DNA of 64,000 bases from Methanosphaera sp. BMS (GTDB lineage Archaea > Methanobacteriota > Methanobacteria > Methanobacteriales > Methanobacteriaceae), in assembly GCF_003268005.1 (NCBI RefSeq), contig NZ_CP014213.1:2377501-2441500 (forward strand). Direction: 5' to 3'. The notes under the pieces are model-generated. The model saw only the letters and a program-made list of their open reading frames with translations, searched no databases and had not been told where the DNA came from. Below are positions 5,697 to 58,761 of this stretch, piece after piece. Positions within the stretch are counted from its first letter, which is position 1; the number at the start of each line of letters is the position of its first letter. The position numbers and the translations under genes were made by a program.

Positions 5697-8030
5697 TTAT
5701 CCCGTATTAGGAATTCTCTCGGAGGTATTTGATTTAATGTATTTTGCTACGAAGTTGTTGTACATATTGTTTGTCTGATTTTTAACAGTAGCCGTTAAGT
5801 TGTAATTCAATTTCAGGATTAGACCGGAGGTATCGTAGTTGTTGAAACAGCTTTTCACATAGGATACGGTCAGCCAATTTGTTGGCATACCATGACTTCC
5901 CTCATTGTAGGAACCTGATGGATTTGCCACCAATACCCTTGATTTATCTTTACTTATGTCCAATATTGCAACGTAATGATTCCATGTGTGGAATATCAAT
6001 GCACATCCACCTTTTGACAGTTCATTCAATGCATTGTCAAATGTTGTATTGTAGTAAAATGTAGCGGACATGTTGTGCATTCTGGCAGCACTTGCAAGAC
6101 CGCTGGTTGATGAACCATCAGAATAGGTTGAACCTGCGTCAATGGATCCTCGATACTCTGAAAAGTAAGTCTTAAGCGTCTGACTGCACATGCTAAGGGA
6201 TGTCGGACCGCAGGTATATGACGTGTTTTGAATGTCCCTTACTTCCGAATATGTATATTCAACACCCCTGAGGTTTGCTGTTATCTCCGCAGGGTATGCT
6301 CCTCCATTGGATAATACAAGATTACGGTTTATGGCTTTTTCAATGACATTCCATTTTTCACGTCTCAACACATGATACAAGTCAGGTTCTGATTTTGTCT
6401 TAAATGCAACATATCTTGACATGAAATTATTCAGGTACATGCTGTAGCTATCTTGTACGGTTATTTCCTGATATTGCTCACGTGTAAGGGTATATGTGGC
6501 ATTTTCATCAGCCCACAAGTAATTTGTCATCAAGGAAATATTTGGCATTCCGTCAACATTTTCTATTATATTGTCCAAAGGATTTTTATTACCTTTGATT
6601 GCAGTATTTTCACTATTTAACTTGCTTTTATCCACTGTTTGAATTATCTTCGTATCAGTACTATTTCCATAAACTCCTGATATGTAATATGCATCAATTA
6701 TATGGCTGGAAGTATCATTTGGCATGGTATAATTGTATAATGCCTTTGAATTTACGATGCCTACCTTTTTGATTTGGTTATTGTCTATTTTAAAGAGTAC
6801 ATAACCGCTATTGATGTTGGTCTTATAGTACTTGGTATTGTTGAACGTTACATAAGCACGTAACTCTAATTTATTGGCGTTTTGTGTAGCTTGTGGTATG
6901 TCAAGCAGCAAGTTCACTATAGGTGTTTCATTCTTAACAGTTATGCTGACGGGTACTGCAGTTTTTGTATAACCAGGGGATATGAATTCTAACTTAAAGT
7001 CATGGTTTCCGGCACTCATCTTACCCAGATACAACTCTCTTTTTCCATTGATTAAAGAGTTTTCTCCAATCAGCTTATTGTTTTGATATAATCTGATTTT
7101 TCCTGTTTCAACGATATTTCCATATTCATCAGTAACGTTAACATTCAAGTAAACTATGTCATTTGTCGTTTTTATCAGATTGTTTGAGTTTATTATGGCT
7201 TCCTTAATGATTTGCTTCGATAAGTTGCTTCTTGAACCTTCAAATATTTCATTACCACTGTAAACAGCTTGGATTGTAATGTTGTTGGTCGTCCATGAAA
7301 GGGGTGTCGTGTAATTGAGTACAGCCGAACCGTTTCTAACCCGCACTTCTATTGCCGTATTGTTTGATTTGAGTGTGGCTCCATTGATTTTATATATGGC
7401 TTTTCCACCTGAGACCGGATTTCCCCTTTCATCAATAACCTCAGCCGTTAATTTTATGTTTTCTTGATATGCCAAATTATATGATTTGATGCTAACGGTG
7501 GTGTCTAACTTCATGCCATCCAATATTAGGGGATTGCTTCTACAACTATTATATTGGCTGGTTCCACTATAAACTGCCTCCAGACTGATGGTTTTATTCC
7601 ATGACTTCGGTATGGTATAGTTAAGTATTGCAGTGGAGTTAACCACTGGTGCATAACTTATTTGGCCGTTGTCTTTTATGGTTTCCTTATTTACCTTAAA
7701 CAATACCTTTCCTGCGTTAATGATGCCATCATTTTCATCCTTAACGCTTGCTTTAAGCTGTACGTTGTCTCCGATTTTGCCCGTGAAGTTTTCTACCTCA
7801 ATGTTGGTATTTGTTTTTGAATCGCCTTTAGCTGTCTTGTTTTTTACTTCTGTCTGTTCTATTTTATTGTTTTCGATATTTTTTTCGCTTACCTTAACAT
7901 TGTCAACGTCTTTTAATGTATCACTTAGATTATTTTGTGAATCATCATTAATGGCATTTACACTGGATAATCCCAGTATTAACGTAAATACTACTAAGAA
8001 AAATATCACATCTTTAATCTTGATATTCAA
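5697..8030 (-). CDS. Secreted Ig-like repeat protein with C-terminal C39-like cysteine peptidase
   Basis: The 777-residue protein starts with a signal peptide (IKDVIFFLVVFTLILGLSSVNA) and a polar linker. At least three Ig-like repeats of the kind found in methanogen adhesins follow; each has a 'GKVLFKVN ... VLNYT.P.SW' core ending near 'AVYSG'. The C-terminal 250 residues form a papain-fold domain with Cys607 in SYTCGPTSLSMC, His685 in NHYVAI and Asn703 in ANPSGS, as in peptidase C39 families. It probably acts outside the cell, cleaving peptides or cell-wall cross-links, but the substrate is unknown. The start is TTG at 8028-8030 with an AAAGGAG site upstream; no ATG precedes the signal peptide. 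The canonical pseudomurein endopeptidase (C71) signature was not recognised. Confidence 0.85.
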   Translation of the reverse strand: MNIKIKDVIFFLVVFTLILGLSSVNAINDDSQNNLSDTLKDVDNVKVSEKNIENNKIEQTEVKNKTAKGDSKTNTNIEVENFTGKIGDNVQLKASVKDENDGIINAGKVLFKVNKETIKDNGQISYAPVVNSTAILNYTIPKSWNKTISLEAVYSGTSQYNSCRSNPLILDGMKLDTTVSIKSYNLAYQENIKLTAEVIDERGNPVSGGKAIYKINGATLKSNNTAIEVRVRNGSAVLNYTTPLSWTTNNITIQAVYSGNEIFEGSRSNLSKQIIKEAIINSNNLIKTTNDIVYLNVNVTDEYGNIVETGKIRLYQNNKLIGENSLINGKRELYLGKMSAGNHDFKLEFISPGYTKTAVPVSITVKNETPIVNLLLDIPQATQNANKLELRAYVTFNNTKYYKTNINSGYVLFKIDNNQIKKVGIVNSKALYNYTMPNDTSSHIIDAYYISGVYGNSTDTKIIQTVDKSKLNSENTAIKGNKNPLDNIIENVDGMPNISLMTNYLWADENATYTLTREQYQEITVQDSYSMYLNNFMSRYVAFKTKSEPDLYHVLRREKWNVIEKAINRNLVLSNGGAYPAEITANLRGVEYTYSEVRDIQNTSYTCGPTSLSMCSQTLKTYFSEYRGSIDAGSTYSDGSSTSGLASAARMHNMSATFYYNTTFDNALNELSKGGCALIFHTWNHYVAILDISKDKSRVLVANPSGSYNEGSHGMPTNWLTVSYVKSCFNNYDTSGLILKLNYNLTATVKNQTNNMYNNFVAKYIKSNTSERIPNTG

Positions 8031-8865: not shown

Positions 8866-9939
<1,074 letters not shown>

Positions 9940-9954
9940 TTTATCTTTACCTCC

Positions 9955-11613
9955 CTAGTATTCTTCATCATCTGTCTGTATTCTCATTTTTGGCTCTTCG
10001 GTTTTTATGTGCATTGGCTCAATTTCCGGTTGTTGAAGACGATTTTTCATATCCATAATCTTAGCCTTGTGCGTTACCTCATCCATTATCTTATTATATT
10101 CCGGTACGTCTTTTTCAGCCAATAATGCTGATTGTTTAATAACTACAGGCACCAGGTCTTCAAATATTTTAGCTCTCATTTCTTCATTTTTAGCAGCCTT
10201 TTTGGTTCTTATGTATTTTTCCAGTTTTCTGGCTATTTTCATTGTTGCCTGTCTTATTTCACGTACGATTTCTTCCTCTGGAGCTACACTTTGTTTACCT
10301 GTGGATAGGTATGGAACGTTTGTTGATATGATGTTTACAAATACTGATATTGGTGCATCATCCAGGCTTCTTACACCATATCGTCTCCAGTCAATACTTT
10401 TTAATGCCTCTGTTATTGCACAGCTTCCCTGGTCAAATGTCAAAGGTACACGGTTGGCAAATCTCATGATTTCTGCCTTTCTTTGTTGGCCGACTAGACG
10501 TCCTGCTTTTCCACCATATGCAATACCCGCTTCTACGATGAATGATACTCCACCACGGTATGCTTGTGGTTTTCTGGTTATGGCAGTTGAAAATTCCGGC
10601 AGTAATATTTCATTAATACCTTTTTCTATCTGTTCGTTACCGATTGGTTTTAATCCACTTGTTGGTGGAGCCATGAATTTCATTTGATCAAATTGGTTCA
10701 CAACGGCTTCTGCTTCTTTCCATGTGATACTTTTTGGTCTTTTGTTCATGTCCAGGCCTGTTGCTTCCTCAATTTCCTTGATTTTTGCCGCGGACACACG
10801 ACTTAATGAATCCATGAGCAGGTTTTTGAATCGTTTTTTGTTTGTTGATTTGCAGAGGTATATTATATCATCGGCGGTTACCCCTTTTGGATGTGGAAGT
10901 ACTTCTTTTGGAAGTGGAGGTATCTTGTCTGTTGCCCTGTCAAAGGTGTATTTTCTTCCTGTAGGATCTTTGAATACTATTTTTGCATGAGGATTACCTA
11001 TTACGGTACGTCTTATGTATTCGTATGCTCCCTGTTCACTCATTGAGTATGATACATCTTTAAATTCAATTTCAATTCCTGAACCTGTTCTGTCTGTTTC
11101 AAATTCCTGTCTGTCCAGAATTATACCGGTATTCTTTTTAACATCTAACTTAACGGTCATTTCAATACCTTTAAGCTGGTTGCCGTCTTTGTATCTTGAT
11201 CTTATTTTTACCGGTTGACCTGTGGTCATCTGGGAGAGTAATACACATCCACTACAACCTAATCCCTGTTGTCCACGTGATTGGATGTTTCTGAATTTAC
11301 TTCCTGCAAACATTTGGCAGTATACCTTTGTTATAAATTCTTCCGGTATACCCGGACCATTATCCGCATGTGTTAGGAGGTAATGGTCTTTTCCTAATCT
11401 TTTAAGTTCTATTGTTATGTCTGGTAGTATTCCAACTTCTTCACATGCATCAAGACTGTTTGTTATAAGTTCGTGGAATACGATAGTAAGTGATCTTATC
11501 TTTCCAGAAAATCCTAACATCTGTTTGTTTCTTCTGAAAAATTCTGATGCTGTTAATTCCTTAAATTCTTCGAATAATTCGGATGTGTCACGTTCCAATT
11601 TATTTTCCTCCAA
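9955..11613 (-). CDS. top6B: DNA topoisomerase VI subunit B
   Basis: This is the ATP-binding subunit of topoisomerase VI, a GHKL ATPase that dimerises on ATP binding to clamp the second DNA segment. The Bergerat fold motifs are clear: [13 protein letters not shown] (catalytic Glu and Mg-binding Asn), [10 protein letters not shown], and the GQQGLGCSG lid. The H2TH and transducer regions follow, with the switch-lysine segment near [12 protein letters not shown]. The length is 552 residues. It sits directly upstream of top6A and downstream of the KH/Dim2 gene, an order conserved in many euryarchaea. Confidence 0.97.
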
Positions 11614-12074
11614 TTTTTTTATTTAAATCAACTATGTATTACTTGGTCTTTGTTTGTTATTAACCACTGTGCTTGTTTACTCTGTTGATTATATTTGATT
11701 TCAATGGTTGTTTTGTTAATTTTTTATTAAAAATTATATTTATTTACTAAGCATATATACATGGGTGATTATTAGAATATGAATTTTCTTGTATACTATA
11801 ATATATGTAAATGCTATAATATAAAACATTGCATATACCCTACCTACTAAAAATACTATAAGTTAGGGGGGTCTTGAGAAGTATTCCCACTTGCAAAAAA
11901 AAATTAAAAACACTCCTCTTGATACTCAATGCAATACCTGGAAGAATTATCGATGAGGTTATTTCACATTTTAATAAGATTATCTTTTAATAACATCAGC
12001 AAGTATTCAAAAATAGTCATGTTAATGGCGGTCAATCAAAAAAAAGTATTTAAGAAGTTTTTTAAGGATACTTC
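11614..12074. other. Intergenic region upstream of top6B
   Basis: These 461 bp separate top6B from the KH-protein gene. AT-rich TATA-like stretches at about 11725-11765 on the minus strand could be the top6B promoter. A run of A residues near 11896-11912, on the downstream side of the KH gene, gives a U-run in the minus-strand transcript that may end it. No gene was recognised. Confidence 0.45.
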
Positions 12075-56213: not shown

Positions 56214-57203
56214 CTAATTTACTTTGAAGATGTCTGTTGTATCGTAATAATATTGACTTTTATGATGATATTCATATTCCTTTTTATATTTCAGCACATC
56301 ATCTCTATTCCAGTTATTTTCATTCAGCTTGTCTCTTACATATCGTGCGATATGGATATTTTTATATGATCCGTAATATTGTCTTTTCTTGTTGATGACA
56401 TGTTGTATGTAGTAATCGTTTCCTTTCTTAATTATGTTCTTGTCCCTGTCTTGAATTTTTCGGGTGATGTCTATGATGTAGTTGACAATACTCAATTCCC
56501 AGTTATTGTTTGTCAGGTATTCCTTTACCAGTAATGCCAAGTCATATGTTTGATATGAACCTATTTTCAGTCTGTTGCTCCTTATCTGTTTTTTCAGGGT
56601 ATACTTGTTCTGTAGTTTGTCTTCATATGTTATGTTTTCATGATGATAAAAGGGTGGAAGCTTATCATCATCATATCTGTATATCTCGGTAGTTTCACAC
56701 ATCAGTTCCTCATCCATCCCGTATTTCAGGTAGAGATCCCTTTCTTCAAGCACTTCTGTCAGCAGTCTGCTTGTAACAATTGTCATATTGTTGTATGTGA
56801 ACTTATAATAACCTTGTATGGTATTATAGCTGATGTACTTGTAGAATTCTTTTGCAGCCTTCTTTTCTATTATTTCTATGTTGATGTCATTTCCATAAAA
56901 TGGCAGTATCATTTTTATAATGCCTGCATATTTTTTACTTTTGTATGAACCGAATGTTTTTCCTGTTTGTCTATTTTTAACAATGTACTTTCCATGATTG
57001 TCTTCTCTAATGCAATATCGAGGAAAATGTTCATTTTTATCGTAGCCTGTTGATTTGTTTTTTATCCACCCGTATTTTCTCAGTAATCTTTTCTGTTTTA
57101 ATGCATCCTCTTTTGTATCATAGCTACCATAGTTGATTATCTGTCCGTATATTGTCTTTTCGATAACATATTTATTGTTTACCTTTTTGATGTTTGTAAA
57201 CAT
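56214..57203 (-). CDS. Protein of four AP2-like / integrase-arm-like repeats
   Basis: The 329-residue protein contains at least four copies of a 35-residue unit at about 11-46, 72-105, 200-235 and 263-298. Each reads roughly 'Y.I.K....K..YGSY.....A......L...GW'. Three short beta strands followed by a helix are the fold of AP2 and of integrase arm-binding domains, so the protein probably binds DNA at repeated sites. A degenerate fifth unit may lie at 131-163. No catalytic domain is present. Its GGAGG ribosome-binding site overlaps the last codons of the upstream hypothetical gene, so both are co-translated. Confidence 0.65.
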   Translation of the reverse strand: MFTNIKKVNNKYVIEKTIYGQIINYGSYDTKEDALKQKRLLRKYGWIKNKSTGYDKNEHFPRYCIREDNHGKYIVKNRQTGKTFGSYKSKKYAGIIKMILPFYGNDINIEIIEKKAAKEFYKYISYNTIQGYYKFTYNNMTIVTSRLLTEVLEERDLYLKYGMDEELMCETTEIYRYDDDKLPPFYHHENITYEDKLQNKYTLKKQIRSNRLKIGSYQTYDLALLVKEYLTNNNWELSIVNYIIDITRKIQDRDKNIIKKGNDYYIQHVINKKRQYYGSYKNIHIARYVRDKLNENNWNRDDVLKYKKEYEYHHKSQYYYDTTDIFKVN

Positions 57204-57204
57204 T

Positions 57205-57591
57205 TTAACCTCCTTCTATTATCGTTTCCAATATGTCATAACGATTGTTTTCATCAACAATTCGGGTGTTGACATTATCAAGACGGTTTATCCTGTTTAT
57301 TTTTTTGTCTATCATGTGGTTTTTTTCTTTGTCGCGGATGTTGTCTATAATTACTATGCTTATCTTTCCCTTGTCCTTTAGTTTTTTTGTAAGATTGTTG
57401 ATGTCCGTTTCCAGAATTGTTGACTTGTATGTCTGTGCTATTTTCATATTCTTTACTTCATATTGAATTCCCTTATCAAGTTCGCATATCTTGATGTTAT
57501 ACTTTTTTTCGTATTGTTGGAAGTTTTCAATTATTGATTCTATGTCGTTTTCCCTGTTTATTTTCAATGTTTTTTTATTTTTAAATTTCAT
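57205..57591 (-). CDS. Hypothetical charged protein preceding the AP2-like gene
   Basis: This 128-residue, strongly charged protein has no recognised family. It contains a plausible alpha/beta core (ISIVIIDNIRDKEKNHMIDKKINRINRLDNVNTRIV), suggesting a small nuclease or nucleotide-binding fold, but no catalytic motif is convincing. It is co-transcribed with the AP2-like gene and divergent from the short Orc1/Cdc6 gene across the C-rich tract. Confidence 0.5.
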   Translation of the reverse strand: MKFKNKKTLKINRENDIESIIENFQQYEKKYNIKICELDKGIQYEVKNMKIAQTYKSTILETDINNLTKKLKDKGKISIVIIDNIRDKEKNHMIDKKINRINRLDNVNTRIVDENNRYDILETIIEGG

Positions 57592-57704
57592 AAATATTCC
57601 TCTAATTACTTCATAAAAACCTAAGTTTACGTATTTTTTTGTAGCATTCCTGTTTTTTATTTTTTTACAATTATACTATGTTATACATTCTTTATAAAGC
57701 AATT

Positions 57705-57850
57705 GAGGCCCCATACACTCCCATATACTCTCCCACACTCACACGCTCCCCCACCCCCTCCCCCCTTCACTTGCAACATATGTATAACGAAATAAAATTC
57801 ACTTTTGAATACTTATCACTACCCCCTCCCCCAGTATTACTTATCATTAC
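57705..57850. other. C-rich tract with origin-like elements beside orc1/cdc6
   Basis: The plus strand is strongly pyrimidine-rich with runs of 5-6 C (57710-57765 and 57821-57833), unlike the surrounding AT-rich DNA. TTCACTTGCAAC (57766-57777) directly follows one C-run, and TTCACTTTTGAA (57798-57809) stands before the other. The combination of a short dyad and an adjacent C/G string resembles archaeal origin recognition boxes. An origin function is inferred. Confidence 0.5.
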
Positions 57851-57939
57851 CCGGTTTTCTTTATATATTATCCAAGAACAAATCATAACATGGAAAAATC
57901 AAAATCTAAAAAAAAAAATAAAAGGAGTGAAAAAAGTCT

Positions 57940-58761
57940 ATGAGCATATTTGATGAAGTAATGAGTTCCGATTTCACGGTATTCAAAAACAAGGAAATCT
58001 TTAATCTTGATTACATACCCGAAATCATCCAATGTAGGGACGCACAACTAAAAAGTGTTCTGATAAACATAAAACCATTACTGGATAACAACAAAGCAAT
58101 AAATTCCATATTAATCGGAAATACAAGTACAGGAAAAACAACAGTCGTAAAACATGCAATAAGGGAAATTGAAGAACACACCAACTTAAAGACATGTTAT
58201 ATAAACTGCAACATACAGGATACTCTGCGCAAATGCTACTTTCAGATATACCGAGTATTGTTTGATAGGGAAGCAAGACGTGGACTCAGCACTGAACTTA
58301 TACAGGAAGAAGTAATGAAAAAGCTCGAGGAACAATCATGCATACTTGCAATAGATGACATAAACTATCTAAGCAAAAACGATGCAAATAATCTTATCAA
58401 TGAACTATTCCGGTCCAATGAATTCTACCACTTAAACATAGCATTAATAATAACAATAAATGATGAAACATTCAAATATTCACTGGAAAAAAATGCACAA
58501 AGTATACTCTTGGGTCATGAAATACGATTCAACGATTATACGAAGGATGAAATCTACTCAATATTAAAGTACCGATGCAATGCTGGCCTAAAGGACCGTG
58601 TTATAAATGATGAACAGTTGGAACGAATCAGCAACTATTCCCATAAGATAGCTAGTCTGAGAAGAGGACTAATATTAATACAAGTTCTAGGACAGACTAT
58701 AGAATCAGAAAGCAGGTGTAAAATAGAGGATGAGGATATTGACAAATATGTTCCATATTAA
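57940..58761 (+). CDS. Short Orc1/Cdc6-like AAA+ ATPase
   Basis: This 273-residue AAA+ protein resembles archaeal Orc1/Cdc6. It opens with the typical PEIIQCRDAQLKSVLINIKPLL, then Walker A GNTSTGKT (60-67), Walker B CILAIDDINYL (134-144) and the lid region around YTKDEIYSILKYRC and LRRGLILIQ. The C-terminal winged-helix DNA-binding domain (about 100 residues) is missing, since the protein ends right after the lid. It may therefore be an accessory initiator, a loader, or a derivative from a mobile element. It has an AAGGAG site. Confidence 0.82.
   Translation: MSIFDEVMSSDFTVFKNKEIFNLDYIPEIIQCRDAQLKSVLINIKPLLDNNKAINSILIGNTSTGKTTVVKHAIREIEEHTNLKTCYINCNIQDTLRKCYFQIYRVLFDREARRGLSTELIQEEVMKKLEEQSCILAIDDINYLSKNDANNLINELFRSNEFYHLNIALIITINDETFKYSLEKNAQSILLGHEIRFNDYTKDEIYSILKYRCNAGLKDRVINDEQLERISNYSHKIASLRRGLILIQVLGQTIESESRCKIEDEDIDKYVPY

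Follow-up and report, generated by a model that had tools for sequence, protein, structure and literature searches.

A short promoter element recurs across the Methanobacteriaceae, and we estimate about three chances in four that it marks an SOS-like regulon including a short Orc1 protein, which would serve as a damage-regulated partner or competitor of full-length Cdc6 and not as a replication initiator. The element, its geometry, its target genes, its spread and conservation, and the intact state of the short Orc1 gene are all directly observed. We found no earlier description of the box in the literature searched, most subscription papers lying outside that search, and the findings point to a previously undescribed archaeal counterpart of the bacterial SOS response. 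The chief methane producers of the human gut and of the rumen are members of this family. Among archaeal damage regulons, the one in the Sulfolobales has been studied best and, to our knowledge, how euryarchaea switch on DNA repair is still an open question.

The short Orc1 gene and its neighbors

The locus lies in a 64-kb stretch of the Methanosphaera sp. BMS genome, the window of this study (positions 2,377,501-2,441,500 of a single 2.87-Mb contig, which carries two further, full-length cdc6 genes); coordinates below are window positions unless given in Mb or kb or with a locus name. An ORF on the + strand (57940..58761) encodes a 273-aa Orc1/Cdc6-like AAA+ protein with the Walker A motif GNTSTGKTT, the Walker B motif ILAIDD and a Cdc6 lid, the combination that places it in the Orc1/Cdc6 family, and without a winged-helix (WH) domain. 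It matches NF001624 (E 1.6e-63) over positions 5-274 of the 374 in the profile, which cover the AAA+ domain and the lid, and PDB 2qby_A with E 4.9e-18. Gene calls here and below are ORF based with unverified start codons, many of the genomes are metagenome assembled, and related genomes are not independent.

The preliminary description had seen a truncated Orc1/Cdc6 lacking the winged helix. The missing domain is confirmed by alignment, the ORF stopping where the winged helix would start, and the C-terminal winged helix is absent from every short orthologue compared, all of which end after the lid. Truncation or a pseudogene, however, is ruled out by intact orthologues of equal length. They occupy one fixed site in 15 of 20 Methanosphaera genomes at 45-92% identity and are about 270 aa long throughout, bar one with internal stops and one broken by a string of Ns. 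Retained in the alignment are the ATPase, the lid and, as in Cdc6-2 (the product of the second full-length cdc6), a DD Walker B; the stop falls just before the winged helix. Because intact orthologues of the same length recur in a syntenic module, we regard the protein as a stable, selected short form.

The divergent genes are, as previously noted, a hypothetical and a repeat protein, namely a conserved 128-aa protein (57205..57591, - strand) and a 329-aa protein with four or five GxY...A repeats (56214..57203, - strand). The former has clear homologues in 17 of 20 Methanosphaera genomes and none clear outside Methanosphaera. Single-sequence structure prediction gave an unusable model for the 128-aa protein (pLDDT 36) and a mostly unusable one for the 329-aa protein (pLDDT 41; 64-77 for the first 40 residues), on whose weak model the first repeat may form three strands and a helix resembling an AP2/integrase DNA-binding domain. 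Both genes accompany the short Orc1 gene across Methanosphaera, so the suggested synteny check returned a fixed site with the same two partner genes in 15 of the 20 genomes. In species with enough context, genes for adenine deaminase and an FAD-dependent reductase flank the three-gene block; where the module is missing, in G004 and G016, ~0.5 kb joins these two neighbors. In G013 (L072:406-2093) the orientation of the Orc1-like gene is flipped with respect to its partner genes, which is either a real inversion or a contig-end artefact.

A module that is intact and syntenic across the genus is not the degraded plasmid or viral replicon considered earlier. A broader version of that idea, in which the locus is left over from an integrated plasmid or virus replicon, or is its control region, and the short Orc1 is a selfish replication gene, draws on the odd, C-rich composition of the intergenic region and on the variable places of short Orc1 genes in other genera, some of them near integrases. 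We consider it the most improbable of the readings weighed here: the Methanosphaera module sits at one site wherever context allows a check and is mostly intact, the short Orc1 diverges as the species do (45-92% identity), and no rep or virion genes surround the module in Methanosphaera. Similar short forms are present in many genera of Methanobacteriaceae in varied contexts. In a quick tree the Methanosphaera short forms make up one well-supported clade and the Cdc6-2 proteins another single clade, a topology compatible with either one origin or several origins of all short forms.

A conserved promoter element in Methanosphaera

Positions 57592-57939, between the two divergent units, are a promoter region for both. 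The conserved core of this region, overlooked in the preliminary description, consists of two copies of TACTTATCANNACCC (57810 and 57838) on the + strand, both conserved in the genus: a distal box, TACTTATCACTACCC (57810..57824), followed by C-runs to 57832, and a proximal box, TACTTATCATTACCC (57838..57852). The proximal box starts 22 bp before the start of the TATA box of the Orc1-like gene (TTTATATAT; 57860..57868, + strand; assigned from position and conservation), a spacing of 22-26 bp in the genus promoters compared. Two further elements emerge from the intergenic comparison, the genus-conserved GTATAACGAAATAAA (57782..57796) and the conserved CTTTATAAAG (57690..57699, - strand), presumably the TATA box of the divergent two-gene unit. 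The order in the genus, from left to right, is CTTTATAAAG, a C-rich or CACTC-rich tract, GTATAACGAARTAAA, one to three copies of TACTTATCANNACCC, and the TATA box.

The 15-mer TACTTATCANNACCC has 12 exact copies in the window's genome and, with one mismatch, 30 sites versus 3 for the reversed pattern. The sites include promoters of TnpB-type insertion sequences (several copies), a six-box array at 823 kb and the promoter of the Orc1-like gene; several Methanosphaera matches fall within coding or low-complexity sequence and have no suitable gene downstream. The window has a second gene linked to the box, which homologue match identifies as DNA topoisomerase VI subunit B (9955..11613, - strand), with the subunit A gene (8866-9939) as its downstream partner in a top6BA operon. 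The same box (TACTTCTCAAGACCC; 11869..11883, - strand) stands ~256 bp upstream of top6B and is kept there in six other Methanosphaera genomes.

The boxes form an array in most of the other Methanosphaera examined, with up to 8 copies immediately 3' of cdc6-2. The array is directed toward the gene of a small membrane protein (57-66 aa), which runs convergent to cdc6-2 (for example L028:2926-3108, - strand). Of 25 loci from other genera, most likewise have the box facing a gene for a small membrane protein next to cdc6-2 (box-linked loci of this kind include L086 ~5950-6200, L268 and L285). Upstream of cdc6-2 itself no box is present; the box faces the convergent neighbor. That the box is read only by the module's own proteins is unlikely, as G004 and G016, without the module, keep their arrays. 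Three genomes of another genus have no short Orc1 at E 1e-40 yet carry 12-23 box sites, and since genomes without it keep the box, the short Orc1 would not be the sole reader.

Position of the replication origin

The region had initially been proposed as a possible replication origin, a reading that the ORB matrix, the skew and the recurrence of the box at promoters all contradict; by none of the tests made here is the locus an origin. Several observations behind the proposal do hold. The C-runs are out of character for the genome: the low-complexity tract at 57709..57774 has 39 C and 2 G in 66 positions, and elsewhere in the 516 kb of genome sampled no 66-base stretch has as many as 34 C (or G). 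ORB-like TTCACTT words (57766 and 57798) and TACTTATCA (57810 and 57838) do stand beside C-runs (57748-57765 and 57822-57832) and near an Orc1-like gene. The position of the tract is conserved in the genus and its sequence is not; in the corresponding intergenic regions of two relatives (L008, L010) a G-run partly replaces it, as if strand were irrelevant. The weak ORB-like word TTCACTTGCAAC (57766..57777, + strand) occurs only in the sister species in the intergenic comparison, and the TTCACTT dyads, confined to the two closest species, are ruled out as a functional element.

The true origin is a textbook one beside cdc6-1, 0.41 Mb from the window locus. Full-length cdc6-1, at 2.027 Mb, encodes a close relative of Sulfolobus Cdc6-1 (PDB 2qby_A, E 4e-76) and seven TTACACTTG(A/C)AAT boxes flank the gene, six of them at intervals of ~52 bp. 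With a matrix built from these seven boxes of the genome's own origin, the best match in the 64-kb window falls inside the noted region, at 57763, with a score of 10.9 versus 29-40 for true ORBs. No ORB array like that at cdc6-1 exists at the window locus, which has one weak word, unconserved in the genus, and no adjacent initiator with both AAA+ and winged-helix domains, its protein stopping after the lid. Intergenic skew, computed from sampled stretches of the genome, stays mostly below zero between 1.14 and 2.02 Mb; from 2.15 Mb onward, round to ~0.86 Mb, it is mostly above zero. The suggested GC-skew check therefore placed the sign change at cdc6-1, between 2.02 and 2.15 Mb, and found none near the window locus at 2.435 Mb, that is, between 2.29 and 2.57 Mb in the sampled stretches. 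Skew in the complete genome G016 likewise suggests a single origin at cdc6-1. The suggested search for the same boxes near the main cdc6 came out negative at the cdc6-1 origin and positive elsewhere, with arrays beside the second cdc6 and boxes at DNA-repair promoters across the family.

Could the locus instead be a second or dormant chromosomal origin, its boxes serving as recognition boxes for Cdc6-2 or the short Orc1? The box resembles an ORB (TTACTTTTCAAAT versus TTACACTTGAAAT, 10/13), C/G-strings adjoin it, the window's best ORB-matrix match falls here, and up to 8 boxes are arrayed beside cdc6-2. In two other genomes (L228, L229), moreover, a canonical ORB (TTTTACACTTGAAAT/G) and the box stand 28 bp apart, ~100-150 bp before the short Orc1 gene. 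We nevertheless think this very improbable, because the sampled skew has the same sign on both sides, true ORBs cluster at cdc6-1, the ORB-like word is unconserved in the genus, and the element stands at many promoters with a fixed spacing to TATA, unlike the elements of origins.

Distribution across the Methanobacteriaceae

In other Methanobacteriaceae the box reads TTA[C/G]TTTTCA[A/T]ATGCTCT (18 bp), at a distance from TATA similar to that in Methanosphaera. The consensus, TTASTTTTCAWATGCTCT, is not palindromic and so differs from a LexA-type operator. Twelve genomes were searched, and each of the ten from outside Methanosphaera (four genera) has 8 to 35 sites versus 0-2 for the reversed pattern. 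At 18 loci of other genera the short Orc1 promoters match at 14-18 of 18 positions, against a shuffle mean of 11.4.

A second site set comprised 116 exact Methanobacteriaceae sites among the matches listed (at least 120 stretches, five of them from unrelated bacteria). Among the matches listed, 112 of the 116 exact sites fall between genes, with TATA-like sequence most frequent at +27 to +31 from the box and a median of 82 bp between box and ORF. The box thus stands directly upstream of BRE/TATA in many promoters, the arrangement known from the Sulfolobales.

The Methanosphaera and family boxes match at ~11/18 positions. They are best read as versions of one element, since the Methanosphaera boxes nearest TATA are sometimes of the family form (TACTTATCACATGCTCT in G004, TACTTCTCAAATGCTCT in G005). 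The top6B gene carries both, the Methanosphaera form in that genus and the family form in another.

Genes downstream of the box

The first genes downstream of 40 sites in four genomes encode Top6B-Top6A, Hjc, Hef, RPA, UvrA, a UvrD-like helicase, two XPD/DinG-like helicases, a MutS-V protein, NurA-HerA, the PolD large subunit, NrdD, YdjM, an integrase, and a small protein beside cdc6-2. Similarly, the 86 downstream genes among the matches listed include RPA (9), Hjc (8), Mre11 and TnpB (4 each), Hef and Top6B (3 each), and UvrA, NurA, MCM, NrdD and YdjM (2 each). As a control, none of these families is among the 25 most frequent of 105 upstream neighbors among the matches listed; that control does contain HerA (3) and PolD (2). 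DUF763, a KH/PNO1 protein and HemD likewise occur downstream of boxes, and an unannotated family (NWxEEIT...GGWLKT) lies under the box in two genera (L277, L288).

The hjc promoter was compared in 30 genomes, of which 21 score at least 14/18 and 11 are perfect; 24 of 1200 control windows reach 14 and 0 reach 16. In 20 further genomes few have a box at hjc, and at Methanosphaera hjc and hef none was found. Regulon membership therefore appears to vary between genera, with a smaller or rewired regulon in Methanosphaera. Two genomes with no detected cdc6-2 (G026, G031) have hjc without the box, as do some genomes with cdc6-2.

These targets also bear on whether the box instead tunes replication genes during the cell cycle, in an S-phase-like manner, and not after damage. 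RPA, MCM, the PolD large subunit, NrdD, Top6 and Orc1-like genes would suit such a role. The list is dominated, however, by Hjc, Hef, Mre11, UvrA, NurA, UvrD-like, YdjM, TnpB and virus integrases, a composition closer to an SOS-type set, and we judge replication-cycle control rather unlikely.

Mobile elements share the box. In TnpB-type insertion sequences it lies in the tnpB promoter, often in 2-3 copies (L082-L085, L089, L097, L099, L100; L111), and TnpB-type elements of Methanobrevibacter genomes also bear it. Of 27 virus contigs with the box (L463-L489), at least 10 show the start of a recombinase-like ORF 40-76 bp beyond the box, and 8 of the 10 such ORFs tested match phage integrase Pfam families, weakly to moderately. 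Boxes before these tyrosine-recombinase-like genes suggest damage-linked provirus excision in methanogens. Phage lambda is tied to the bacterial SOS response, and TnpB elements and virus integrases under the box look like parasites tied to a host stress switch in an analogous way.

A proposed damage-response regulon

We propose that the genes behind the box, which serve DNA repair, recombination and replication or belong to mobile elements, form a regulon. It would answer to DNA damage or replication stress much as the SOS system does; it is the gene content that suggests this control. The reader of the box is probably Cdc6-2, acting as Orc1-2 does in the Sulfolobales, though this step is the weaker one. 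Its diverged sequence (best PDB match E 2e-29 versus 4e-76 for Cdc6-1) and the box-bearing gene beside cdc6-2 in most genera make it the natural candidate. The closest precedent is Orc1-2 of the Sulfolobales, a non-initiator that recognizes A(N)TTTC immediately before BRE/TATA and in Sulfolobus acts through this motif at -44 to -39; it needs its winged helix, and a WH-less version binds no DNA (PMC5817253, PMC9738581). The family box contains A(C/G)TTTTC, one T more, and the Methanosphaera box ACTTATC.

The short Orc1 appears to be a target of this regulon and perhaps its modulator. With ATPase and lid kept and the DNA-binding domain missing, it is most likely a damage-regulated partner or competitor of a full-length Cdc6 and not an initiator. 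Its likeliest role would be to pair with a full-length Cdc6 and alter its activity after damage, tuning either initiation or the regulon. The 57-66-aa membrane protein is a candidate damage-induced division inhibitor. More tentatively, and with the odds somewhat against the scheme in full, Cdc6-2 may have turned into a box-reading transcription factor on which, or on the initiator, the WH-less Orc1 produced under its control feeds back, while the arrays drive a membrane protein that may halt division and TnpB elements and proviruses have plugged into the circuit.

An 18-bp box with a short target list would make DNA-repair control testable in culturable methanogens. The proposed regulon would give a role to the puzzling WH-less Orc1 proteins, suggests repeated use of Orc1/Cdc6 outside replication, and predicts that methanogen proviruses are induced by DNA damage.

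Comparison with known systems

The locus shares with an archaeal oriC beside cdc6-1 an Orc1-family gene, an ORB-like word and nearby C/G-strings, but lacks the ORB array, the winged-helix initiator and the skew change, and its element occurs at many promoters. Cdc6-2 of the Methanobacteriaceae (NF001624 type) is a close relative of the short Orc1, with the same AAA+ domain, lid and DD Walker B, whereas the short form stops before the winged helix and, in Methanosphaera, forms a separate well-supported clade.

The bacterial LexA SOS set comprises UvrA, UvrD, SSB, Holliday-junction processing, a DinG-type helicase, YdjM, ribonucleotide reductase, phage functions and a small membrane protein. The methanogen set is comparable, with RPA for SSB, a DinG/XPD-type helicase, YdjM and NrdD. 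It is served, however, by archaeal transcription machinery, and no LexA is implied; a box that is not palindromic and precedes TATA fits an activator better than repression of the LexA type.

With the Orc1-2/DDRE damage regulon of the Sulfolobales the methanogen system shares a non-palindromic box just upstream of BRE/TATA in many promoters, a T-rich TTTTC core, and a non-initiator-like Orc1 paralogue in the same genome. The methanogen box is longer (18 bp), and its targets are mainly repair and recombination genes, in contrast to the pili and DNA-transfer genes of the Sulfolobales. Furthermore, the cdc6-2 promoter has no box whereas that of Sulfolobus orc1-2 does. In the methanogens a WH-less Orc1 is itself a target, and the regulator and its induction are here proposed from genome comparison.
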